Position numbers and translations under genes: made by a program
Virus record (IMG/VR): IMGVR_UViG_3300025626_000105
Location: 1-27,295 of that record
DNA length: 27,295 nt
Strand: one strand, 5' to 3'
Source: a virus
Notes under the pieces: model-generated
The model's database searches: none
What the model saw: the letters and a program-made list of their open reading frames with translations, nothing else
What the model was told of the DNA's origin: nothing
Part shown: piece after piece, positions 1-16,384 of the stretch
Layout: every line of letters begins with the position of its first letter
Position numbering within the stretch: position 1 is the stretch's first letter

Positions 1-3000
1 ATTTATTTTCAACATTTAATATACCTAACTCAACTAAGCCATCTGCTTTAGTTTTTAAAGAAGGATTGAAATTAAACTTTTCAAATACGCTACGGGTATC
101 AGCTGTTTCTACTTGCTGGTCTTCCGCTGCAACTTCTCTAGACTCAGGAGCATCAATAGTCTGAGCACCTTGAGTTGCTTGTTTACTAGCTCTTTCTTCA
201 AAAACTCTAATAGCTTGGAGGGCTAAATAAGTTTTAGCATGTCCCCCAAATGATCCAATAGCTGGGTTGTATCTTTTAGCTATCCCTACTAACGAGCTTG
301 CTTTATTGTTATCAGGACCAAACACCAAGTCAGAAACAAAAGCTTCTTTATTCTCTTTATTAGAAAAGTAATCCATAACAAATTGGTCTTGTTCTTTACT
401 AATACCAAAACCAACTTTACTGATACGCTCAACCACAGCTTGAGCTAACGGTTCATAAGCATACGCAGCCTGAGCATGAAAACTATCAGGAGCGTTGTTC
501 TTTTTACCGTCATAAGTGTATTTTTGAAACTCTTGATTAATAGAGCCTTCTTCAAATGTAACGTTTTCAACTATTCTGGAAGGGCTAGCTTTATTTGTAG
601 CTTTTTCGTCTACTTCAATTTCAGTACTGCCTTTTTTTGGAGCAGGTAATTTAATATTTGAAATTGGGTTACCATTAAAACTGTTATACTTTCTTAAAAA
701 AGCTATTGTTTCAGACCCATTTTCTAAGCCTGAAAAATCTAAAGATTCAGGGTTACCAATGCTTAAAGCTTCCGCTATTCTATTTCCTATTTTAGAAAGA
801 GCGGTTGTTACTTGAACATCCCCAGATTCAACTTCTTTTGCGCGCATAAAGTCAGAAACAGATGCTAAAAATTCTTCATTAGCTTCACGGGACATAGCAT
901 CGGAGTAATCATTAGAAACTCTAAGCCCAGATAATTCTACTATATCTTGTAATCCTTTATTACCTGATTCTTTAGCAAACTGTTTTATACCACCCACTAT
1001 AGATTCTACAGTAGCATCATCAGAGGAATTTAGTATAGCGTGAATACCTTCGTGGTGAACAGCATTGCCACCGACTCCTGCTTTTCCGAGATTTAGATTC
1101 TCTTTAACATCAACTATTATTTTCTGTTCATCTAAAGTAACTGCATAGTTATCACCATTAAGTAATCCCTGCACATTTTCTATATTTAAATCAACTCCTT
1201 TTCTACTTAAAAAATCTTTAGCTTCGTCAGATGTTTTAAAGGATGAATATGTAAAGCCGTTAAATTTTTCAGAGTTATTATTTATATAATCTCTGAATTT
1301 ATTGCCCATGTTAAGAACAACTTGCTTGTTAAGTACATTTAGTTTTTTAGCTTCTAACTTTTCAATTTTTTCTTCGTTAACAGCCACTTGCCCAGCACTA
1401 AAAACATTATCTGAGTTATATTGTGTTTTTAAATTTTCATTTTTATTAGCTAAAACTTTCTTTTGTATTTCAAGATCTACCATTTCTTCTTTAGCCTCTG
1501 TTTCAAAATTTCTATATTTTGATTCCCTAGCTATAGACTCAGCTTCGTATATTGCTGTTAATTGCTCGTCACGCTGCGCTTTATCAATGCTTCCGTTCTC
1601 ATACAGTACTTCTACTGCATCCGTTTCTTGCTTAATCTGGTTAGTAATTTCTTTTTTACTCTTAAACTCAAGCCCAGCTAGTTTCCTAGCTTGACGTATA
1701 GTGCCTTTCGTTCCTCTACCTGCAGCTACTAATGGTCCAGACGTTACAAAAGCCTGCGCCCCAGCTTCTTTTAATTCTTGACCAGTTATGCCTATTGTTC
1801 CAAGTTCACTACCAACGGTTGTACCTGTTATGGTTTCTTGAAACATTTCAGTAGGCACTTCTGATATTTGTGCTTTTAAAACCTCTTTTAAATTACCTTT
1901 AGATGCTTTGATAGCTCCTTTAAAGTTTCTTTTGACTAAATTACGTGCCACAGAGCCACCTACTCCTTTTGCTATTTTACTAGCTCCAAAAAGATTTGAT
2001 AGAACATCAACTGATGCTGATATTCCACCAGCAAGTTCTAACTTAGTATAATCTATTTCACCATTACGAACTATATCTTCGTACTCTTTGTTTTTTTCTT
2101 CTTGAGACATACTGTCCCATTTTTCCCCTAGTTTTTCTTTACCTTTACCTTCTAAAACTTCAGAAAGCATTCCTCCTGCTTCTTGAGCATAGATTAAAGG
2201 AGGCACGATAGACATTACCATTTGTCCAGCTTGCGTTCCAAAAAGTTCGCCAAAGTCTTCACTTGTTAGACCATCTTCATCCCAAACTTCAGGTGGAGGA
2301 CCGAATTTGTCAATCATTTCTTGATATTGCTGAGATTCAACAATTTTACCTAAACCTTCGCTGTATTTTTCTTGTATTTTATTTTTATAGTCTTCAATAG
2401 CAGCTTCATTAGATTCATACTTATCGCTACCGCCGGCTATATTTGTTACAAACACACCTCCTTCTTTAGATGGTGTACCTCCTTGGGATTCAATTCTTTC
2501 TAATATTTTACCCAAAGAAGCTGCGTCATCTAGCTTACTTAAAGCTCCCGTTACAGGCATGCCTAAATCAATAGCCTGCGGTACAGTGTACATTAATTTT
2601 AAACCGCCTTTTTTTACACTATCAGGCAAAAAAGGAACGCTTCTGAAAGTGTAGTCAGCTAAAGCTTTAACTTGCGCTTCGTTTTCTTTTTCGGCTTTTA
2701 GCTCTGCACTATTAATTAACTCTATTTGTTTTTCTACTAAAGCATCCGTGTAAGTATTAAGCCTTTGTTTATACCCATCAGAGCTATCCATCGCGCTTTT
2801 GAGCAAGTTAGTTGTAAAAGTGTTTAATTCCTTATTAGCGTCATTAACTCCCTCTGACTTTGATAAATCGTATTTTTTAGATAATTCGCCTTTAAAGTTT
2901 TCTATTTTATCTTTTTCAAGATCAAACACATTTTGCGAAAAGGAAGTTACAAATTCGTCGTTTATAGCTGCTTTTGCTAATAAATTACGTGGATTAGAAA

Positions 3001-3373
3001 AATCAGATAATGTAATATCTTTTAATTGATCTTTAGTATTTTTAAAAACTTCTACAGCATTTGTTGGCTCTACCTTTATGTTGTTTTTTTCTTCATATGA
3101 AGGCAAAAAACCTATAGGCTTTCTTTGGTCTTCAGCAAACTGAGAAGGACCTTGTTGGTTACCTTGTAATTCCGAAGAACCATTTGCCGACTGCAACTCC
3201 GTATCTACGGGTGTTTCTGCCACTACAGGCGCAGTTTCCTCCGCAGTGGCTTTTTGAAAATCTTCAGCTACCTCTGATACTTCAAGACCTTCTTCTTGTG
3301 CTGTAGCTAAAAAACCATCAACTTCTTGTGGAGAAATATCGTAAGTTTTACCGTTTACTGTGTATATTGGCAT
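1..3373 (-). CDS. Giant virion (ejection-type) protein with zincin motif, partial
   Basis: The reading frame is open from the ATG at 3373 to the left edge. I read it codon by codon and found no stop, giving at least 1124 residues with the C-terminus outside the window. The protein opens with a short module (MPIYTVNGKTYDI...) of a kind seen at the start of large virion proteins of flavobacterial phages. A charged, helical, Glu/Lys-rich body follows. An HEGIH sequence at residues 774-778 matches the HExxH zinc-metallopeptidase signature. Near residues 1030-1060 a segment (YNPAIGSFGG...) resembles parts of polyvalent phage proteins. It starts 11 nt after the 701-residue gene. Size and position recall T7 gp16, the largest ejected core protein, and the giant cargo proteins of crAss-like phages. 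Likely role: packaged in the virion and injected, perhaps cutting a wall or membrane barrier. The gene and frame are certain; the role is inference. Confidence 0.8.
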   Translation of the reverse strand, partial: MPIYTVNGKTYDISPQEVDGFLATAQEEGLEVSEVAEDFQKATAEETAPVVAETPVDTELQSANGSSELQGNQQGPSQFAEDQRKPIGFLPSYEEKNNIKVEPTNAVEVFKNTKDQLKDITLSDFSNPRNLLAKAAINDEFVTSFSQNVFDLEKDKIENFKGELSKKYDLSKSEGVNDANKELNTFTTNLLKSAMDSSDGYKQRLNTYTDALVEKQIELINSAELKAEKENEAQVKALADYTFRSVPFLPDSVKKGGLKLMYTVPQAIDLGMPVTGALSKLDDAASLGKILERIESQGGTPSKEGGVFVTNIAGGSDKYESNEAAIEDYKNKIQEKYSEGLGKIVESQQYQEMIDKFGPPPEVWDEDGLTSEDFGELFGTQAGQMVMSIVPPLIYAQEAGGMLSEVLEGKGKEKLGEKWDSMSQEEKNKEYEDIVRNGEIDYTKLELAGGISASVDVLSNLFGASKIAKGVGGSVARNLVKRNFKGAIKASKGNLKEVLKAQISEVPTEMFQETITGTTVGSELGTIGITGQELKEAGAQAFVTSGPLVAAGRGTKGTIRQARKLAGLEFKSKKEITNQIKQETDAVEVLYENGSIDKAQRDEQLTAIYEAESIARESKYRNFETEAKEEMVDLEIQKKVLANKNENLKTQYNSDNVFSAGQVAVNEEKIEKLEAKKLNVLNKQVVLNMGNKFRDYINNNSEKFNGFTYSSFKTSDEAKDFLSRKGVDLNIENVQGLLNGDNYAVTLDEQKIIVDVKENLNLGKAGVGGNAVHHEGIHAILNSSDDATVESIVGGIKQFAKESGNKGLQDIVELSGLRVSNDYSDAMSREANEEFLASVSDFMRAKEVESGDVQVTTALSKIGNRIAEALSIGNPESLDFSGLENGSETIAFLRKYNSFNGNPISNIKLPAPKKGSTEIEVDEKATNKASPSRIVENVTFEEGSINQEFQKYTYDGKKNNAPDSFHAQAAYAYEPLAQAVVERISKVGFGISKEQDQFVMDYFSNKENKEAFVSDLVFGPDNNKASSLVGIAKRYNPAIGSFGGHAKTYLALQAIRVFEERASKQATQGAQTIDAPESREVAAEDQQVETADTRSVFEKFNFNPSLKTKADGLVELGILNVENK

Positions 3374-6260: not shown

Positions 6261-9200
6261 TTAAGTTTGACTTATGTAGTATTCTGAACTAATTGCAAAA
6301 AGTTCTTTCTTAGTTGTTGCGCTAGTTTTAAATCTAACTTTTGCAAAGAACCCTTTAGTGCCTGAAACATCTTGTGTATTAGCCCCATCCTGTATTAAAG
6401 GCCAAAAGCCGTCAGCACCAACTGTTCCAGCTGGATCTACAACGTACACAGGTTGTGTTCCAACAATAGCTCCGTGATATTTACCTTCTTTTAAGAACCA
6501 TCCTAAGAACCCAGATTCATCTGAATCAAGTATTCTAACATTGTTAATGCTATACACACCATCTTGATCTCCTACTATTTCAGAAGCTTCCCAATCTGAA
6601 TCACCTTCGTAATTCAATGTGAGATAGTCTGAAACATATGTTGGATTGTCGTTAAATATTACTTGCACGTTAGAATCATAAGCAGTGCCATAGAAAGTGT
6701 TCCTGTCAGCCACATCTGAATTATGCAAATATGCTTTGCCGTTTTTAAATGTGTAAAACTTATTGTTCATTGTTACACCAGACTCTGGTATAAAACTATA
6801 TCTTGACGGCCACCCTTCAGAACGCAAACTATAACCTAGTGTAATATTAGATGTTTCATTTGGGATTGTTTCAGAGCCAATAGAAGCTGCGTTAGGATCA
6901 TATCCTTGTATTGATAACACATATTGCTTTTTGGTTCCATCATAAGCTCCTATAAGCCTTCCGTCGAGAGTGGCTCCGTTGATACCTTTTATATTTAATG
7001 CTCCTAATCTATCTCTAAAAAAGTTTGACATCCCTCGGCTGCTAATTGGAAACAATTGCCCATTAGCCGGCGTGAGCTGCATTACTGTACCTCTTTTAGC
7101 ATCTGTAAAGTAAGCGTTATTACCAAAGAAAATAAAAGACTCTGGGTGTGTGCTTATACCGTAATTACCCTGATATGCTATTGCTTGGCCTAGCACATTT
7201 GGTGTTGCTATTAGGTTAACATTTTCATCCGCATTAAACAGCGCATCTTTATCCGCTAATACTTTAAACACTTTATCTTCTGTTAAAGTTAGAAGGTTTG
7301 TGTCTAGCGCAAACATTTTTTGTATTCCACCGTAGTTAGGCTCTAACTCTTTTGTAGGATTTATAGACATATTAAACTGATTAAGCTCGTTTATGCCTGT
7401 TTTAGAATTAAATATACCTGAGAATATTAATCCTGTTTTTCTGCGCTCTTGAGCATACCCAGCCTCGGGCGTATTTACCCTTATGGATTTAGTCATCTCA
7501 ATACCATTAAACTTATCAAGAATCTTCGTTGATTCTAAATAAATAGCTTTAGGCGCTCCTCCTACTCTAGCAATACAGTTACTCCAGTCTATTATATTTT
7601 TTTTACCATGGTCTGTTGCAATATCAAAAGTACTTGAGCTTTCCCAGTATAAATCTAAGTTAGACTCTTCGCCAGAATCTGTTTCAAAATCAAAAGCCAC
7701 TAGGTTTTCTACCTTGCCATCTTCATCTAAAGATGTTTGGGCTACAGGCATACTAGTTATTATAGCGCTTTCACTTGGATTATTAAATTTTCTAGGTATT
7801 TTTACAAAAAACGATCCTTTCAGTTTGTCAAACGCTTGTTCTGTTAATCCTATTTTAGAAAACTGAAGATAAGGGTTATTATATTGGGCATCTCCGGTGT
7901 ATGTACCTGAGCCGTTCATAGTAATTCCAGCTACGTTTATTCCCAATCCAGCATCAACAGTACCTTCACCAGTTACTCTATTACTTAAAGTTATCTTTAT
8001 TAAGTCTCTTCTTGAAGAACCAGATGTTGCTGACAGCTCTATTTCATCTACAAGACAAAGTTGAGTTGCTTGAGCAATAGCGCTTACCGCAGCCGGGGGA
8101 AAAGCTGTAAATTTTAATAAAAGTCTTTCTGTAAAACCTGTACAATCGATAGTTATAGGGGTTAATCCAGTTTCCTGCCCTACTTGTAAAGTTGTGCTTC
8201 CGTTTTGTGAAGAAATATATGCGTTTAAAGAACTAAAATTAAATCTATTGCCTCTATCGGAAATGTATAAAACAGTTTGTCCTACGGTTGTACCATTAGG
8301 AAGAGCATTACCGGCTGAATTTGAAACAACAACATTTTTAGAGGAAAACTTAGTTAAAGATTGAATTTTTCTTTCTAATAATTGCTGTTTTACTATATCA
8401 GGGGCTTCATTTTCAATATCTAAAACAGGCTGTCTAAACTGCTCTCTTATTATTGTTCCTGCAGGAGTATCATGCGTAGACCTCCGTAACATAAGGAATG
8501 AATCTTCTGTTATTTTATTTCTATCTTTAGAATCAAATTGAACATAAACATTAGAAGCTTCACCCTCCCCTTCACTTCCTTCTATATAGGAATTAAAAGC
8601 TGTTAAATTTTCATAATTGCCCGATGTATCTTTTATAAAATACCTGTAGCAAGCAGCCCATGGAGGAGGATTAGACGTTATTTTTGCGTTTAGTTTTGCT
8701 AACCCTGAATAAGTAAAATTTGTTTTAATTAAAGATCCGGTACTATCCCCTGTTGTTACTTTTTGAGTTAACAAAGATCCTTGCCTTCCGTATTTATCTA
8801 TATATACTACACCTACTTCGTAATTTCTGTTTGTTTTAACAGAAGGGCCGGCTGTTGACCCACTAACAAAAGATACGCCTGTTTCTATAGAAAAACCCCC
8901 TTTGCCAAGTTCTTTATCCCCTTGGTTAAACTTATGCAAATAATTACCATACATTAACCTGTTTGCGGTTATTTCTTGGGCTTTTGCTTTTAAAGGAACG
9001 TTATCAAAATGTCTATTTAATTGGTCATTTACCAAAGCGCTTCCTAAAGCTCTTCTAGGTATTTTAATGTTATAGATAAACCCATTGTCTCTTTCGTCCA
9101 CTGGTATTTCTATTGTTTTTAAAACGTATATAGTGCTAGAAATAGATTCTGTATATAATATATCAACAGCAACAACGTCCTCCCTACCTTTTGGTATAGC

Positions 9201-9401
9201 GGTTATTGTTATTAAGTCTAGGTCGTTGGTCATAAAAACATTAAAACCATCTTCATATCTTTCAAGGTCGTTTGTTGACGCAACCGACAAAAACTGCACC
9301 TCAGTAAAAGGAGCATAAGGCGAGTATTCGCCGTCGTCGTATTGCCATCTATAACTAAGATATGGAAATATTTCTTCAAATGGTTTAATTTTGTCAGCCA
9401 T
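6261..9401 (-). CDS. Tail nozzle/muzzle protein, C-terminal propeller part
   Basis: A 1046-residue beta-rich structural protein. Its first 40 residues (FPYLSYRWQYDDGEYSPYAP...) match what I remember as an internal segment of one-piece phage nozzle (muzzle, P22 gp10-like) proteins, not a natural N-terminus. Around residues 700-870 are propeller-like motifs (FIFFGNNAYFTDAKRGTVMQ, ISSRGMSNFFRDRL, DGRLIGAYDG). The C-terminal part (about 900-1046) contains further beta modules ending in ISSEYYISQT. I see no signal peptide or membrane segment. It starts 17 nt after the FN3/BACON gene. In the virion it would form the distal tube of the short tail. The N-terminal parts of the same ancestral protein appear to be encoded by the two large ORFs upstream (15361-13592 and 13366-9419). 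Confidence 0.75.
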   Translation of the reverse strand: MADKIKPFEEIFPYLSYRWQYDDGEYSPYAPFTEVQFLSVASTNDLERYEDGFNVFMTNDLDLITITAIPKGREDVVAVDILYTESISSTIYVLKTIEIPVDERDNGFIYNIKIPRRALGSALVNDQLNRHFDNVPLKAKAQEITANRLMYGNYLHKFNQGDKELGKGGFSIETGVSFVSGSTAGPSVKTNRNYEVGVVYIDKYGRQGSLLTQKVTTGDSTGSLIKTNFTYSGLAKLNAKITSNPPPWAACYRYFIKDTSGNYENLTAFNSYIEGSEGEGEASNVYVQFDSKDRNKITEDSFLMLRRSTHDTPAGTIIREQFRQPVLDIENEAPDIVKQQLLERKIQSLTKFSSKNVVVSNSAGNALPNGTTVGQTVLYISDRGNRFNFSSLNAYISSQNGSTTLQVGQETGLTPITIDCTGFTERLLLKFTAFPPAAVSAIAQATQLCLVDEIELSATSGSSRRDLIKITLSNRVTGEGTVDAGLGINVAGITMNGSGTYTGDAQYNNPYLQFSKIGLTEQAFDKLKGSFFVKIPRKFNNPSESAIITSMPVAQTSLDEDGKVENLVAFDFETDSGEESNLDLYWESSSTFDIATDHGKKNIIDWSNCIARVGGAPKAIYLESTKILDKFNGIEMTKSIRVNTPEAGYAQERRKTGLIFSGIFNSKTGINELNQFNMSINPTKELEPNYGGIQKMFALDTNLLTLTEDKVFKVLADKDALFNADENVNLIATPNVLGQAIAYQGNYGISTHPESFIFFGNNAYFTDAKRGTVMQLTPANGQLFPISSRGMSNFFRDRLGALNIKGINGATLDGRLIGAYDGTKKQYVLSIQGYDPNAASIGSETIPNETSNITLGYSLRSEGWPSRYSFIPESGVTMNNKFYTFKNGKAYLHNSDVADRNTFYGTAYDSNVQVIFNDNPTYVSDYLTLNYEGDSDWEASEIVGDQDGVYSINNVRILDSDESGFLGWFLKEGKYHGAIVGTQPVYVVDPAGTVGADGFWPLIQDGANTQDVSGTKGFFAKVRFKTSATTKKELFAISSEYYISQT

Positions 9402-9418
9402 TATTTATTTGTTAAATG

Positions 9419-12400
9419 TTAATATCTAAAATTGTCAGTGTCACCGTCGGTCTCTTTAAACCAATCCAAATTGTCAACGTTGTCGTTAAAACCTGTGCCT
9501 ACACCTTGTTGAATAATTTCTATTCTAAGCTGTTTTGTTATATCAGTAGTGTTTTCTAATGTAACCCCTGCCCTAGTTTGATAAGTGGTCTGATTAACTC
9601 GCTGTCGCCCTATGTTTAAAAAATACGTTCCATTTTTTAATCTTTTTGTAACCCTAGGGCTAATATTTGAGCCACTCCATTTTTGAGTTGATTTAATACG
9701 CCAGTTATCCGCTGTGTTTTTTTCAGTAGCTATTTCTATAAAAAGATCCCCGCCTAAAACAGGTCTATTAAAACTGCTATCAGAGCAAGGGTATCCCTCT
9801 GAATCTACATACACGGTGTTGTAATTAGATGGAACTGTTTCTATTTTAGAAGGTGTATTATCTGATATAAACAACTCTGTAACATTGTTAGATATACCGG
9901 TTTCGCCTTTTGAATTTGTAGCATAAGCGGCGTAAATATAAGTATAACCCTTTTGAAAACTAGAGATTGATTTTGAAAAATATGAACCAGCTGTATTCGA
10001 AACTTCATTAGTTGCAGTAACACCCGCAGGCGGATTATCAAAAACACTTTTTAAACCAGCACCTGTGCGGGTTAAAGATATTGAATTCTGCCCTTGTTTC
10101 TTAATAACATAAAAACCTTTAGTTACTATATCACTAGTATTTTTTGTAATTCTACCATTCATTTGCACCTGACCGGAATAAGTTTCAGCTTTTAGTTCTG
10201 GTGTAGTATTTAATGTTGTATCAGTAGAAACATTTATTGTTATAGATTTATAATTATTTGATATTCTAGTATAAGTAGTCCCTCCTATAATTATTTCGCA
10301 AAAAGCAGATACATAATAAGTACCATTAGCTAGAGCTGATGTTGGTTTAAAGGAATAATCTACCCCTTTTGGCAAATTTAAACCACTTAGTTGCGTTCTA
10401 TTAGTAGGGCTTGCCATTTCTGTTTTTACGTCAGCCTCTGCCGAAGAAGAAAAACTTGTTGATGGTTTATAATAAAATCCTTTTTTACTTATAGTATAAT
10501 TTTGTGAGTTTGCGTTTGCTTTTCCTACAAAGTTAGGGTAGCTAGCATTGGCGTCGATTCTGTTTATTACAACAGTAGGTTCAACATCTATAGAGGTTAT
10601 TGTTTTACCTATTTGTACAGATGCTAGACTTTCTCCATATCCTATACCTCTCCCAAATTTTATTGGAACCGGTCTTTGAGCTGCAAGACCAAGATTATAC
10701 AATCCAGTTCTGTGCATTAAATTGAAGGGAGTCCAGTATATATATTTTCCTTCTTTACCAGCAGGTATTGTTATGGTTGTTTCTAAATGAAACTTTTTTT
10801 CGCCATAAAGCTCTGCTCCGTTTGTTCCTGTAACAATGCTCGTCCAATTTGTAGCCTGCACATTCCCGCTTCCTCTTGGATCTGGCTGTGTTGAAGTAAC
10901 AGGTATAGTAACTTTATTAGTTGAGGGCTTAGCAGCCCATTCTTCAAGTTTTTCCTGGTTAACACTGGTTCCTTCTATTTTTTCATAACTCCAATAGAAC
11001 CCCATTTCTAACAAAGCATTATTTGATCTATTTGCGTTTGGACACATACTAGCATAAAGGGTTACCGAGGTTGTTGGGTTTTCCGGTAAATGTGTTTTAG
11101 CGGGATCAACCCCACCAAACCACATTGTGGGAGGCCCAAGTCTTAGGCCCGTACAGTTGCCGGTTGTAAATCCAGAGCCTGTAGAACTAAATATAGCCGC
11201 AAAAGCCCCGGTTCTTATATTTGAAAAGTACTTTTGTCCGTCGTATATTATATAAACATAATACGAAAATCCAGCATTGAAAGGACCAAAATAACTTTCC
11301 GGAAATAATTCTTTATACCTTAAATCATCCTCTGTGTTTACGTTTTCCCTAGTATTGTACTGTATCGTATAATTACCTATTTGATTATTAGGGTCCGAAC
11401 CGGTATATGTAAATTGCGAGCTTTCTATAGTAACAGAAGTAGGAGAATTGTCTATTTTATTGTAACCGTCGTTTTCTTTATGAAAACCGTTTAACACACC
11501 TGAGGCCGCAATGTTTGTTTCATTTATGCCATATTCAGGGCTATCGCCTGACGGATAAGCATAAACAAGTCCTATAGCGTCTACTTTTGTACTGTCTGGA
11601 ATAGCGTCAATATCAAAGCCTAAGCTTAAAACACGATGCCTATCTGAATTAAGTTTATACGTAGTAAAATGATTGATACTTATTTTAGGCTCTACATTAG
11701 CAACCGTTGTTACTCTATCCATACCTAAACCTTGCCCTAGTGTAAGTGATCCTCCAACCGCTGATCCAACTGTTGGTCGCTGTGGAGCATAAGCTGTTTG
11801 TCCTCGGTCGTTTGTAGCGTATGCTACATAATAAACAGTTTCATTTGTATTTAAGGCTCCATTATTAAAAAACGCGCCATTATAGGTGTTTGTAAAAAGA
11901 GAATAATCTTCATTTAACCCATTAGTACCAGGTGTTATAGGTACAGGAACTTTATAAGTATTACTCGGGGCTCCACTCCCAGTTGCTTGGTATGTTGTTG
12001 GACTAAAAGTTAAGGTTTTTATATTGTTTAAATCATTTTCAACTGTTGAAAATATAAAACCTCTTTCTGAAAGCGTTGCGTTCGAACCAGCGTTTGTTAT
12101 ATGTGCTTCAAAACTAACATATGTTGCTGCCGTACCGGGGAGTTTATGATACAATGAAGGTGCCTCGTTCGAAACATCTGCACTAATTTCTATTATACCA
12201 GGAACAGCAGAATACACTCTGCCTTGTGTAGAATTTTCAGTATCAACATATGCGTAAACATAATAAATACTTCCTGTTGTTAATCTACTTGCATCAATAT
12301 TTTGTTCTGGAAAAAACCTTCCATCGTTATCGGCTGCCGAATTATTTAAAGCTTTAGGAAATAAAGATTTTGTCCCGTCATCGTCTGTATATATAGGTAT

Positions 12401-13366
12401 ATTACCACCCTCTTGGTCTCTTATTTCATTTCTTACCTCGGTTGCTGTGGGGACTCCTTCCCCACTTCCAGCTATCCTTTCTGCACTAATTAAAAATCCA
12501 TTTTGTTGTACTCTTACATAACTATCTTTTGAATATGTGGCTTCTATAGTAACTCTCTTACTCCCTATAAGTGAAGTAACTTGCACGTTTACTTCTAAAT
12601 CAGATATAACGCCAATTGGTTGCGAAGTTGCATCTCCAATAGTTTTATTTACTATGTCTAAATCACCGTTGCTTTCAATGGCAAATACAGGGTCCCCTGT
12701 ACCACCTGCTTCAATAGCATATAATACATAAAATATTTTATCACCGTTACTAACGTTAGCTAGTGCCGGTTCGTAATTAACATTTGTAGGATCATTTGAA
12801 ATGCTTAATTCAACATCACCACTAATAGCTTCTGGCCCTGAAATTTTATATACCCCGTTATTTAGGTTTGCACTTATACTTGCGGCGTTGTCAATTAAGC
12901 TTTCATCAAAAGTATAATAAAAACCTATTTCAGACAATGGTGTTATTGTTGAAACACTTCCATGCATCGACAACTTTTGTAGAGTATCCCCATCGGCTTT
13001 AAATATAGTGTCTAATGATTTGCTAATTTCAAAACCAGTCCATGTTAAATCACCGTCAACTAAAATATCCCCGCCACCGCCGTCATCATCGACCACGTCT
13101 ATTATATTAGATTGTAGGTTAGAATTTAAAGCTTTTTTAGGGTGTTCTTTAATTACCGTTATATCTCTCTCTTCAAAAGGTCTACCGTATATATTTGTTG
13201 TCCCAGAAGAATGATCCACTGTCACCTCATCAAAGTTTCCTTTGAATTTTTCAATATTTATTTTTTTAGGTTCAGTATGGTCATCTGTAAAAAATAACAT
13301 CCCATCAATTATATTGATTCCTGTTATTAAACGGTCTTTATTAAAATTTAATATTTTACTAGGCAT
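9419..13366 (-). CDS. Split nozzle middle part carrying FN3-like array and BACON-like domain
   Basis: A 1315-residue protein. Residues 5-80 (ILNFNKDRLITGINIIDGML, FEERDITVIKEHPKKA) look like a middle blade segment of phage nozzle proteins. An acidic glycine linker (93-100) follows. Then come about seven Ig/FN3-like modules, roughly 135-240, 281-395, 400-530, 555-720, 765-905, 925-1045 and 1050-1165. Most modules carry an early G-F-x-x-S/K motif and a late Y-Y-V-x-A-Y-A-T-N-type strand (for example TVYYVAYATNDRGQT near 510-524). Residues about 1200-1288 look like a BACON-type sandwich ending in LRIEIIQQG. FN3 repeats of this style and BACON domains are common in Bacteroidota surface proteins, and BACON domains occur in crAss-like phages. 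Likely role: arms projecting from the tail to bind glycans or the cell surface. The start overlaps the 76-codon gene by 8 nt. Confidence 0.75.
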   Translation of the reverse strand: MPSKILNFNKDRLITGINIIDGMLFFTDDHTEPKKINIEKFKGNFDEVTVDHSSGTTNIYGRPFEERDITVIKEHPKKALNSNLQSNIIDVVDDDGGGGDILVDGDLTWTGFEISKSLDTIFKADGDTLQKLSMHGSVSTITPLSEIGFYYTFDESLIDNAASISANLNNGVYKISGPEAISGDVELSISNDPTNVNYEPALANVSNGDKIFYVLYAIEAGGTGDPVFAIESNGDLDIVNKTIGDATSQPIGVISDLEVNVQVTSLIGSKRVTIEATYSKDSYVRVQQNGFLISAERIAGSGEGVPTATEVRNEIRDQEGGNIPIYTDDDGTKSLFPKALNNSAADNDGRFFPEQNIDASRLTTGSIYYVYAYVDTENSTQGRVYSAVPGIIEISADVSNEAPSLYHKLPGTAATYVSFEAHITNAGSNATLSERGFIFSTVENDLNNIKTLTFSPTTYQATGSGAPSNTYKVPVPITPGTNGLNEDYSLFTNTYNGAFFNNGALNTNETVYYVAYATNDRGQTAYAPQRPTVGSAVGGSLTLGQGLGMDRVTTVANVEPKISINHFTTYKLNSDRHRVLSLGFDIDAIPDSTKVDAIGLVYAYPSGDSPEYGINETNIAASGVLNGFHKENDGYNKIDNSPTSVTIESSQFTYTGSDPNNQIGNYTIQYNTRENVNTEDDLRYKELFPESYFGPFNAGFSYYVYIIYDGQKYFSNIRTGAFAAIFSSTGSGFTTGNCTGLRLGPPTMWFGGVDPAKTHLPENPTTSVTLYASMCPNANRSNNALLEMGFYWSYEKIEGTSVNQEKLEEWAAKPSTNKVTIPVTSTQPDPRGSGNVQATNWTSIVTGTNGAELYGEKKFHLETTITIPAGKEGKYIYWTPFNLMHRTGLYNLGLAAQRPVPIKFGRGIGYGESLASVQIGKTITSIDVEPTVVINRIDANASYPNFVGKANANSQNYTISKKGFYYKPSTSFSSSAEADVKTEMASPTNRTQLSGLNLPKGVDYSFKPTSALANGTYYVSAFCEIIIGGTTYTRISNNYKSITINVSTDTTLNTTPELKAETYSGQVQMNGRITKNTSDIVTKGFYVIKKQGQNSISLTRTGAGLKSVFDNPPAGVTATNEVSNTAGSYFSKSISSFQKGYTYIYAAYATNSKGETGISNNVTELFISDNTPSKIETVPSNYNTVYVDSEGYPCSDSSFNRPVLGGDLFIEIATEKNTADNWRIKSTQKWSGSNISPRVTKRLKNGTYFLNIGRQRVNQTTYQTRAGVTLENTTDITKQLRIEIIQQGVGTGFNDNVDNLDWFKETDGDTDNFRY

Positions 13367-13589
13367 ATGTTATGATTACTTTAGGCGTTTGAATAACACC
13401 ATTTATAGTTTCTGGTTCTTTAAATTCGTTTAAATATAGTGTAGTGCCTTCAGTTATAACATCGCCCTCTGAAAAATTTAAATTAAAACCATATTCATTA
13501 GTTATGCTTTCTATTGTAATGTTACCTTCGGCTACAAAATTTTGGGCTTCTTGAGTTTGTGTTCCTTGTATTATAATAGCTGTTGGCAT
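13359..13589 (-). CDS. Small protein between nozzle fragments, weakly LysM-like
   Basis: A 76-residue ORF wedged between the two nozzle-fragment genes. It starts 2 nt after the stop of the upstream gene and overlaps the downstream start by 8 nt, so translation of the three is probably coupled. Residues about 20-52 (GNITIESITNEYGFNLNFSE..., then GTTLYLNE) have the spacing of a LysM module: an SIxxxYG helix, then a G-T-x-L-x-L strand. LysM-like domains hold tails to peptidoglycan or serve as hubs in several phages. The resemblance is weak and by eye. It could equally be a spare beta domain cut off from its neighbour. No membrane segment. Confidence 0.6.
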   Translation of the reverse strand: MPTAIIIQGTQTQEAQNFVAEGNITIESITNEYGFNLNFSEGDVITEGTTLYLNEFKEPETINGVIQTPKVIITYA

Positions 13590-13591
13590 AA

Positions 13592-15361
13592 TTAATAGTT
13601 ATATGTTATATTTAAAGTGTGAGAAACTGTGTTTGTTGCGCTATTTAAAACGTAAGGGTCTGCTTCTACAACAATAGCTGGTATTGCATAGCCCAATACA
13701 GTAGAACCCCAAATTGACATAGCTTCTTCAGCAATGTAATAATTATAATCAACACCTTCTGTTTTACCTGTTATAGAAACATCTAATTTAGTAGGATCAA
13801 ACCCTGTGAAGCTAGATGTTGTGTGTAAGCCAGAGGCTACGCTAGTGTCGTTTGCTATAGGTATCATTATAGCGCCGTTACCATGAGACTGCTCAAAAGG
13901 GCCTATTTTAAAATTAGCTAGTGGAGCGGGTGAAGCATTGTAATGTAGTGCAGTCGCGCTATCATTATCGTACACAGCTACAGCTGGCACAGCTCCAGTT
14001 CCTGTTTTTGCAAAATTTAAAGTGAAATTAGACGTAAATACAGCGTTAGAGGGCGAACCTTTTCTTATCTGTATACTATTTGACGTAAGCCCAGTTTTAG
14101 AAGCTGTAATAGTGTACAACCCAGTAGTAGAAGCTGTTGCATATTCGCTTCTGGTTTTTGTGTAATTATTTGGGGCTGTTACTCCAGCATTGTTAAAAGT
14201 CAAAGTGGTGGGGCCTATGCTACTTAATAAACCTGTTTCGTTTCTTAAATCGTCGTAGTCAGTATATAAACCACTTTGTTTTGAAGCAACTACGGTAAAG
14301 TAAAAATTACCATCTGGCTTTTCAAAATCACCATAACCAGGATAATATGGGGAAAGAGCTGTTATTCCTTCATCATTAATAGCTGGAAAAATAAATAATT
14401 TGTTTTGTGGTAATCTATTATAAGCGGGTGCCGCACTTGATATAAAAGTTTTTACTTCACCTTGCGCTGTTCCAACAGCGTTTGTAGCCTGAGCAACAAA
14501 GCTTATTGTTTTAGCGCTAGGCACACTTGTTATATCTTTTGTAAAAGTAGAACTAACCGACGCAACTGTTTCTGTGTTTACAGTATTATTTCCAGCTGTA
14601 CCAGCCTGCAACTCAGCTAAAGTTAACGCTGTACCTCCTGTATTATATCCCCATAAAAATCCAACAGCGGTTACGCCGCTAGTATTTCTATTTAATTTAC
14701 CAACTAAAGTTGCTGTAGTTGATGTTATATTTATTGCATTAGAAGTTGTTGGAGATGGAGCTGTTACAGATGGCTGTACTGCCGACACACTCCCAACGAC
14801 AAAATCATTATAATTAGCAAATCCAAAAGGTACTTTAACTTTAACTTGTACGTCTTGTGTTATTGCGCTGCCTGTTGTATTTGGGTTTTTATCAGCAGAA
14901 ACGCTGGTAGCGTTGCCAAGTTGGCTAAAAACAGATATTAAGCCGCTTTGAGAAATAGATGCTGAAACACCTGCGTTTTCAAAAGTAAATATTGTTTGGG
15001 CGGTAACACTTTCTTCAGAAGAATCAACTATTACAGTACTAACAGCTCCTGTAACCGCATCATATTCAAATATACCATCTGTTTTATCACCTGTAATAAA
15101 GTAATATATTTTATTTTCTTCCGGATGAGCAATACTTCCAATAACCTTTGCGTTAGGATTTGTAGCCGCGCTTAACCCTAAAATATTTTGATTAGCTAAA
15201 AGCTCATTACCTTTAAGGTTCTCTAACGCCCCTACGTTTGCGTCTTCCGAAAAATCTACACTAACATTTAATGCGTCTCTATATGTTCCTGCTGGTAATA
15301 TTCTGTCGTCAATGTTTTTATCCATCTTAGCCGACTGAAATGTTCTTTTACTTTCTGCCAT
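13592..15361 (-). CDS. Split nozzle N-terminal part with FN3-like insert
   Basis: A 589-residue protein. Residues 1-113 (RTFQSAKMDKNIDDRILP..., GTYRDALNVSV, NVGALENLKGN, then KVIGSIAHPEENKIYYFI) are a familiar N-terminus of nozzle/muzzle proteins in marine and flavobacterial podoviruses. In those proteins the chain continues directly into the next blade. Here it leads into beta-rich, Ser/Thr-rich sequence instead. Residues about 195-308 form a textbook Bacteroidota FN3-like unit (ITSTTATLVGKLNRNTSG... to FVAQATNAVGTAQGEV). The remaining 280 residues are further beta modules of unknown type. It follows an AT-rich gap with a perfect hairpin. I infer that this polypeptide supplies the first blade of the nozzle plus a decorating arm. 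Confidence 0.75.
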   Translation of the reverse strand: MAESKRTFQSAKMDKNIDDRILPAGTYRDALNVSVDFSEDANVGALENLKGNELLANQNILGLSAATNPNAKVIGSIAHPEENKIYYFITGDKTDGIFEYDAVTGAVSTVIVDSSEESVTAQTIFTFENAGVSASISQSGLISVFSQLGNATSVSADKNPNTTGSAITQDVQVKVKVPFGFANYNDFVVGSVSAVQPSVTAPSPTTSNAINITSTTATLVGKLNRNTSGVTAVGFLWGYNTGGTALTLAELQAGTAGNNTVNTETVASVSSTFTKDITSVPSAKTISFVAQATNAVGTAQGEVKTFISSAAPAYNRLPQNKLFIFPAINDEGITALSPYYPGYGDFEKPDGNFYFTVVASKQSGLYTDYDDLRNETGLLSSIGPTTLTFNNAGVTAPNNYTKTRSEYATASTTGLYTITASKTGLTSNSIQIRKGSPSNAVFTSNFTLNFAKTGTGAVPAVAVYDNDSATALHYNASPAPLANFKIGPFEQSHGNGAIMIPIANDTSVASGLHTTSSFTGFDPTKLDVSITGKTEGVDYNYYIAEEAMSIWGSTVLGYAIPAIVVEADPYVLNSATNTVSHTLNITYNY

Positions 15362-15451: not shown

Positions 15452-16384
15452 TTAGTGCTTAATCCACTTTGCTTTACCTCTTAATACTTGAGCAAGCTCT
15501 GGTAATTTGTAATTGCTTAATCTTATTTTTGTGTTTCTCATTTTAGCACTAGCTTCTTTCTTGTATAAAGGAACTATAGGTGCAAGTGTTGGGCGTACTT
15601 TAGACAGGTTGTACAGCATGTACGCATACAAGGCATCCTCAGCAAGCTTTGGGATATAAACCTTGCTTAGATCTCCATTATCTGCTAAGCCATCAGAAAT
15701 ATAGTCTAAAACAATTATTTTGTCTTTCTTTAAGGATCCGTCAAAATAAACTAACCCATTTGTTTCATCTATAAAAAATGTGCCAACGCTGTTCATGTTC
15801 TCGGGATTGCTTCCAAAGCGTTTGTTTAAATGAGGATACTCTTCATCATTATATCTTGAATAGTGATCTTCATCAGAAACTTCGTAGTTTGTAGAATCCT
15901 GAAACTTAGTTGTTGTTTCAGACTTGCTTGCTAGCTGAAGGTCGCCATTAGAATCAAATGTGTATTCGTAATCACCGTCTTGCAACGGAGCTGTTGGATT
16001 ATTTACATTTCTTCTTGGTTGTAATCTTGTTTTTGTGCCGTCCTTTTCAACCTGAAATATTCCGCTATAAGTAACGTAGTCTTGAGGCAATGCAAATGTT
16101 AGCGCATCACTGAGTTCTGCTTCAATACTTTTTTCACTATGTAATATATCATAGCTAAACTCTTGAATACCTCGCTGAGCCCAGAAATCCACTTCATATC
16201 TAGGTACTTTTGCTAAAGATTTATCTTCTCCAACATATGCCACTATAAAGTTATTTATAACATCATCTAAGTTAACTCTTCTATAATAACCTAAACCCGC
16301 AAAATCAGAGGGGATGTTTGCTGTATCCCCTTGATGTTTTGCGTAATATTGTTGTCCTGTATATAGTTTTCTAGATTCTGCCAT
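15452..16384 (-). CDS. Ring/adaptor protein of the head-tail connector
   Basis: A 310-residue soluble protein. The region at residues about 70-130 (GIQEFSYDILHSEKSIEAEL, then ALPQDYVTYSGIF and RLQPRRNVNNPTAPLQDGDY) resembles crAss-like and flavobacterial podovirus ring proteins, which stack below the portal and join it to the nozzle. A second block (GTFFIDETNGLVYFDGSLKK) is beta-rich. The C-terminus (VRPTLAPIVPLYKKEASAKM...) is helical and basic. The start codon overlaps the last base of the preceding ring-protein gene (shared base 16384). The gene order portal, scaffold, capsid, unknown, two ring proteins, nozzle supports the role. Functionally it corresponds to T7 gp11 or P22 gp4. Confidence 0.72.
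   Translation of the reverse strand: MAESRKLYTGQQYYAKHQGDTANIPSDFAGLGYYRRVNLDDVINNFIVAYVGEDKSLAKVPRYEVDFWAQRGIQEFSYDILHSEKSIEAELSDALTFALPQDYVTYSGIFQVEKDGTKTRLQPRRNVNNPTAPLQDGDYEYTFDSNGDLQLASKSETTTKFQDSTNYEVSDEDHYSRYNDEEYPHLNKRFGSNPENMNSVGTFFIDETNGLVYFDGSLKKDKIIVLDYISDGLADNGDLSKVYIPKLAEDALYAYMLYNLSKVRPTLAPIVPLYKKEASAKMRNTKIRLSNYKLPELAQVLRGKAKWIKH

Follow-up and report, generated by a model that had tools for sequence, protein, structure and literature searches.

The window, the whole stretch of 27,295 nucleotides analysed here, is a metagenomic virus record (a fragment; IMGVR_UViG_3300025626_000105) from an uncultured viral lineage whose relatives include phages that infect Bacteroidetes. Its minus strand carries a structural block of podovirus type that runs from holin, endolysin, a GroES-like protein and the large terminase through portal, a major capsid-type protein and two ring/adaptor-type genes to four ORFs termed N, S, M and C (Table 1). 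N and S are separated by 2 nt, S and M overlap by 8 nt, and 17 nt lie between M and C. The sequence-only reading of this DNA had taken N, M and C for consecutive pieces of one nozzle (muzzle) protein; its count of three ORFs was incomplete in that S, between the first two pieces, had been overlooked, and the "tail tube" of which it spoke is properly a tail-tip muzzle. The placement of the muzzle ORFs directly after the ring/adaptor genes in a portal-capsid-tail block matches the order in phi38:1, phi13:2 and ctfjg026. An open-ended ORF of at least 1124 aa at window positions 2-3373, located 3' of the tail genes and without a PHROG match, is suggested by its position to encode a large ejected cargo protein.

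Table 1. Features of the muzzle region in the window (positions are those of the window unless a locus is named)
Feature	Position	Strand	Evidence
N chain, 589 aa	13592-15361	minus	
N core, residues 1-113 of N: N-terminal segment and one predicted four-stranded propeller blade	15023-15361	minus	phrog_14478, blastp, dN/dS, AF2
N tail, residues 114-589: predicted Ig/FN3-like domains and C-terminal domain	13592-15022	minus	AF2, repeat HMM, dN/dS
S, 76-aa ORF between N and M	13359-13589	minus	related ORF in most clade loci
M chain, 1315 aa	9419-13366	minus	
M core, residues 1-82 of M: next nozzle segment (putative second blade)	13121-13366	minus	one-chain relatives, dN/dS
M tail, residues 83-1315: six or more Ig-like repeats in an array	9419-13120	minus	repeat HMM
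C chain, 1046 aa: remainder of muzzle	6261-9401	minus	phrog_14478 (1.3e-88), PF25729, tblastn to 87 phage records
crAss_MUZ_C, residues 899-939 of C	6585-6707	minus	PF25729, 30.4 bits vs cut-off 27
Conserved virion protein, 310 aa, immediately upstream of N	15452-16384	minus	phrog_13977 (2e-34); order as in phi38:1
Ring/adaptor-type protein, 234 aa	16384-17088	minus	phrog_14543 (4.8e-44); PF24175 SU10_adaptor (8.7e-05, below cut-off)
Break before the C-terminal domain in other loci (L003, L004, L051-L086, L151, L152, L159)	12270-12995 of L003		

Sequence comparisons identify the 589-, 1315- and 1046-aa ORFs as consecutive parts of one crAss-type muzzle. First, residues 5-119 of N match positions 2-108 of PHROG 14478 (1474 positions; E 1.7e-18), and the best-matching stretch of C, residues 564-924, matches positions 858-1203 of the same profile, collinear with the N match. 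Second, the Pfam muzzle profile recognises C above its cut-off. Third, blastp aligned the N core to N-termini in phi38:1, phi13:2, ctfjg026 and elemoE, and continuous homologues are present in cultured Cellulophaga, Tenacibaculum and Flavobacterium phages. The M piece and the Ig arrays had no match among PHROGs, Pfam and NCBIfam profiles, and PDB sequence searches gave no match either; scans that used N and M at full length recovered no relatives, since most of the peptide patterns came from the fast-evolving tails. The position of the M core was set by HMMs built in this analysis and run on the ORFs of all fetched loci. In relatives with a one-chain muzzle it sits directly between the N and C cores, as in L029, where N spans residues 5-109, M residues 114-188 (5e-25) and C begins at 193. 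The prediction that one family would appear in three collinear, non-overlapping parts held, with the reservation that the library profiles miss the middle part and clade-specific HMMs were required. Without the inserts, 113 + 82 + 1046 = 1241 residues remain, in agreement with the earlier estimate of about 1240.

The core HMMs place N, M and C in order on a single ORF in 108 loci and on three ORFs in 25 loci, the window included; near-identical contigs are counted here, and the three-ORF loci reduce to 13-14 distinct members. One locus, L025, has the first break only, with N separate and M and C joined, and a further six loci are incomplete. The junctions are thus continuous in relatives, as the sequence-only reading stated, and the contrary possibility, that the pieces are independent genes in all relatives, is contradicted. 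Among the nearest one-chain loci the cores are separated by 0 to -3 residues, and more distant ones carry in-frame inserts of ~100-260 residues at the same two junctions. A careful tree of 69 loci (LG+G4) groups all the three-ORF loci into a single clade (100/100), to which L025 is sister (100/97); the one-chain loci L029, L031 and L050 join next (100/100), and the remaining loci are one-chain at both junctions. A second tree agrees with this picture. On the basis of this branching order, a continuous ancestral gene that was broken in steps is very likely, and the simplest history is a single origin in which the first junction was broken and then the second.

Further variation was observed around the muzzle genes. 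The one-chain muzzle of L031 (8027-13666) has an in-frame insert of ~460 residues within the N core itself, and in L025, the one-break intermediate, a 543-aa ORF (8091-9722) extends from the end of N into the beginning of the joined M and C, overlapping both. The N chain of L015 (3815-5573), L018 and L019 is only 208 aa long, the remaining decoration being on a separate ORF of 369-376 aa; the closely related L017 and L040 keep the N decoration on one ORF. The C-terminal ~40-60 residues of C in the window are matched by an ORF of their own, small and located downstream, in L034 (16039-16467), L037, L043-L048, L125 and L148.

Near residue 113 of N and residue 82 of M, conservation drops sharply, from 0.6-0.8 to 0.1-0.5 (0.10-0.31 in the M tail), and the predicted blade ends at residue 114, in support of the piece boundaries drawn from the sequence alone. 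The dN/dS ratios, which are rough, with synonymous sites near saturation in some comparisons, were 0.04-0.09, 0.07-0.26 and 0.10-0.21 for the N, M and C cores, respectively, versus 0.27-0.45 for the N tail and 0.36-0.64 for the M tail. As judged from these values, the cores are under strong purifying selection and the tails evolve fast. An ORF related to S occurs in most loci of the three-ORF clade (dN/dS 0.18 versus L008). S is present together with the C-terminal domain of N, which terminates in HTLNITYNY (...NITY), and both are absent from L013, L014, L016 and L022; S and this domain may therefore act together.

These data bear on two explanations that would do away with three separate chains. 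That the breaks are an assembly or sequencing artefact, or signs of a decaying gene, is scarcely credible: the contig is a metagenomic fragment, but the two breaks recur identically across 25 loci, which come from a MAG contig and many different samples (the group includes L088, a contig binned with a Bacteroidetes MAG), and the low dN/dS speaks against decay. A single chain might still be produced through splicing (introns or inteins), programmed frameshifting or bypass, and ORFs split by introns and inteins can be numerous in crAss-like phages (PMC7886860). However, no Rfam intron was found within the window and no intein match in the protein libraries, and the stretches that would have to be removed encode Ig-like domains under selection. 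Moreover, loci differ in the frame offset from M to C (0, 1 or 2), and an ATG beside the preceding stop opens each ORF. Given the variable M-C offset, the lack of detected introns and inteins and the purifying selection on the cores, we judge frameshifting, splicing, assembly error and pseudogene formation unlikely, and production of a single chain very improbable.

Structure prediction (AF2) of the window's N chain gave a model with a pLDDT of 81, in which residues 72-114 form a blade-like four-stranded sheet that is followed by a weak linker and by Ig/FN3-like domains at ~123-440. The predicted FN3 domain at 198-311 superimposes on fibronectin (1fnf) with a Z score of 11.6 (rmsd 2.2 over 94), and our repeat HMM matches N at 202-304 (3e-22). 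Residues 1-40 are among the most conserved but, on their own, are predicted without a confident fold (pLDDT 37-47), which would suit a segment that folds on a partner. In M the repeat HMM detected Ig-like repeats at 130-224, 267-385, 403-524, 765-837, 930-1037 and 1060-1157 (2e-08 to 6e-24), and it had no match on shuffled controls. A BACON-like domain had been suspected at the end of M; Pfam gave no match.

An AF2 model of the one-chain muzzle of L045 is most similar to the PhicrAss001 muzzle (7QOL/7QOK; Z 16 over 500 residues) and also matches P22 gp10 (Z 9.0); this model, of a distant relative, is of no more than fair quality (pLDDT 60), and the blade numbers used here are tentative. Both junctions lie between strands in this model: the first separates 106-112 from 126-130, the second 179-184 from 203-211. 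A muzzle fold combines a ring-joining domain, a propeller, Ig domains and a crass domain; the evidence for it comprises the fold match of this one-chain relative and the one blade of the window's N chain. The published PhicrAss001 muzzle is a hexamer with a seven-bladed propeller and the domain IG1 between blades 2 and 3 (PMC10172136). Based on this position of IG1, blade 1 would lie on N, blade 2 on M and the rest, from IG1 onward, on C.

It is conceivable that C alone makes a shortened nozzle, and that the conserved cores of N and M, as distinct proteins of the tail surface, merely anchor the Ig arrays and do not complete the propeller. C is long (1046 aa), propellers with fewer blades are known, N and M consist mostly of the arrays, and the conserved cores could also be docking tags on separate proteins. 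Yet the start of C coincides exactly with the end of the M core in one-chain relatives, so that C is without those segments, and the N and M cores are kept in order beside C in 25/25 loci under strong purifying selection. We regard a shortened nozzle as unlikely. Instead, from the conservation, purifying selection, fold and gene order, we infer with a probability of about 0.8 that the muzzle gene was broken twice and that its chains reassemble non-covalently into one muzzle with Ig arms.

In such a three-chain muzzle the breaks would lie in loops between propeller segments: N would consist of the N-terminal segment, blade 1 and a C-terminal Ig/FN3 array, M of the next segment (blade 2) and a far longer Ig array, and C of the remaining muzzle. 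The short gaps and overlaps between the genes would suit coupled translation, yielding the chains in similar amounts. These would assemble non-covalently in the virion, with six copies per chain, to form a single muzzle beneath the ring barrel; N and M would add their blades in trans to the propeller begun by C. A precedent for a blade supplied in trans is provided by Sec13/Seh1 (PMC9646525), unrelated eukaryotic coat proteins whose open propeller is closed by a blade from another chain. The Ig arrays of N and M would project from the tail tip as arms, which, from their adhesion-like domain type and fast evolution, probably contact the host surface.

Comparison with known nozzles shows what is shared and what differs. 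PhicrAss001 gp44 (7QOK/7QOL) has a homologous C-terminal domain, lies after the ring genes and shares its fold with the one-chain relative (Z 16), but its two Ig-like domains are internal to a single chain, whereas here there are three chains with large Ig arrays at the new C-termini. Similarly, gp097 of Cellulophaga phage phi38:1 (Pervagoviridae, PHROG 14478) stands in the same gene order and aligns collinearly with the N and C parts, but is one chain of 1324 aa without Ig arrays at these two points. P22 gp10 and T7 gp12 are propeller-based hexameric nozzles, the architecture proposed here, and P22 gp10 is among the structural matches of L045, yet they are one-chain, much shorter and without Ig arrays. 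The three-chain muzzle is a variant of the crAss-type muzzle: it is not a single polypeptide, yet homology does not depend on this feature.

A broken muzzle also exists in Cellulophaga phage phi13:2 (Pachyviridae). There, gp120 has a new C-terminal tail of ~494 residues and the next ORF, gp121, starts at the remaining core; both are annotated as structural proteins. By contrast with the window, the break lies elsewhere, before the C-terminal domain, and the first two junctions are intact. A sister lineage that includes phi13:2 is broken at this third site with an anatomy like that of the window; in all, the third-site break occurs in 25 loci, including phi13:2 and ctfjg026 (Table 1). In these loci the first ORF gains 274-814 residues and the next ORF starts 2-14 residues from the core; other genes may occupy the gap. 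Parsimony on the tree requires at least 2 changes for this break, and L159 may represent a further independent one. Two interruptions of other kinds were seen: in L133 (6205-9964) the muzzle ORF is broken between the C1 and C2 regions with overlapping frames (a split or a frameshift error), and in L001 (10223-10290; Maribacter phage Panino) it has a frameshift near a run of five T, due to a sequencing error, a mutation or a programmed shift. We lean, if only slightly, towards the broader view that muzzles of crAss relatives break repeatedly, at different inter-segment loops in each lineage, that each new C-terminus grows a decoration array, and that the tail tip would here comprise at least 18 chains with ~10,000 residues of exchangeable Ig arms.

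No mention of muzzle fission was found in the Crassvirales papers and the open-access journal literature searched; the available text of the Nature structure paper mentions insertions and no fission. The nozzle gates DNA release and has hitherto been regarded as one chain. A natural nozzle made of three chains, present clade-wide and with a surviving intermediate, would show how this propeller machine tolerates fission and how surface arrays settle at open chain ends, and would identify the loops that tolerate breaks and inserts. Nozzle parts can hide among neighbouring genes annotated as "hypothetical" or "structural", which matters for the annotation of many related marine phages.
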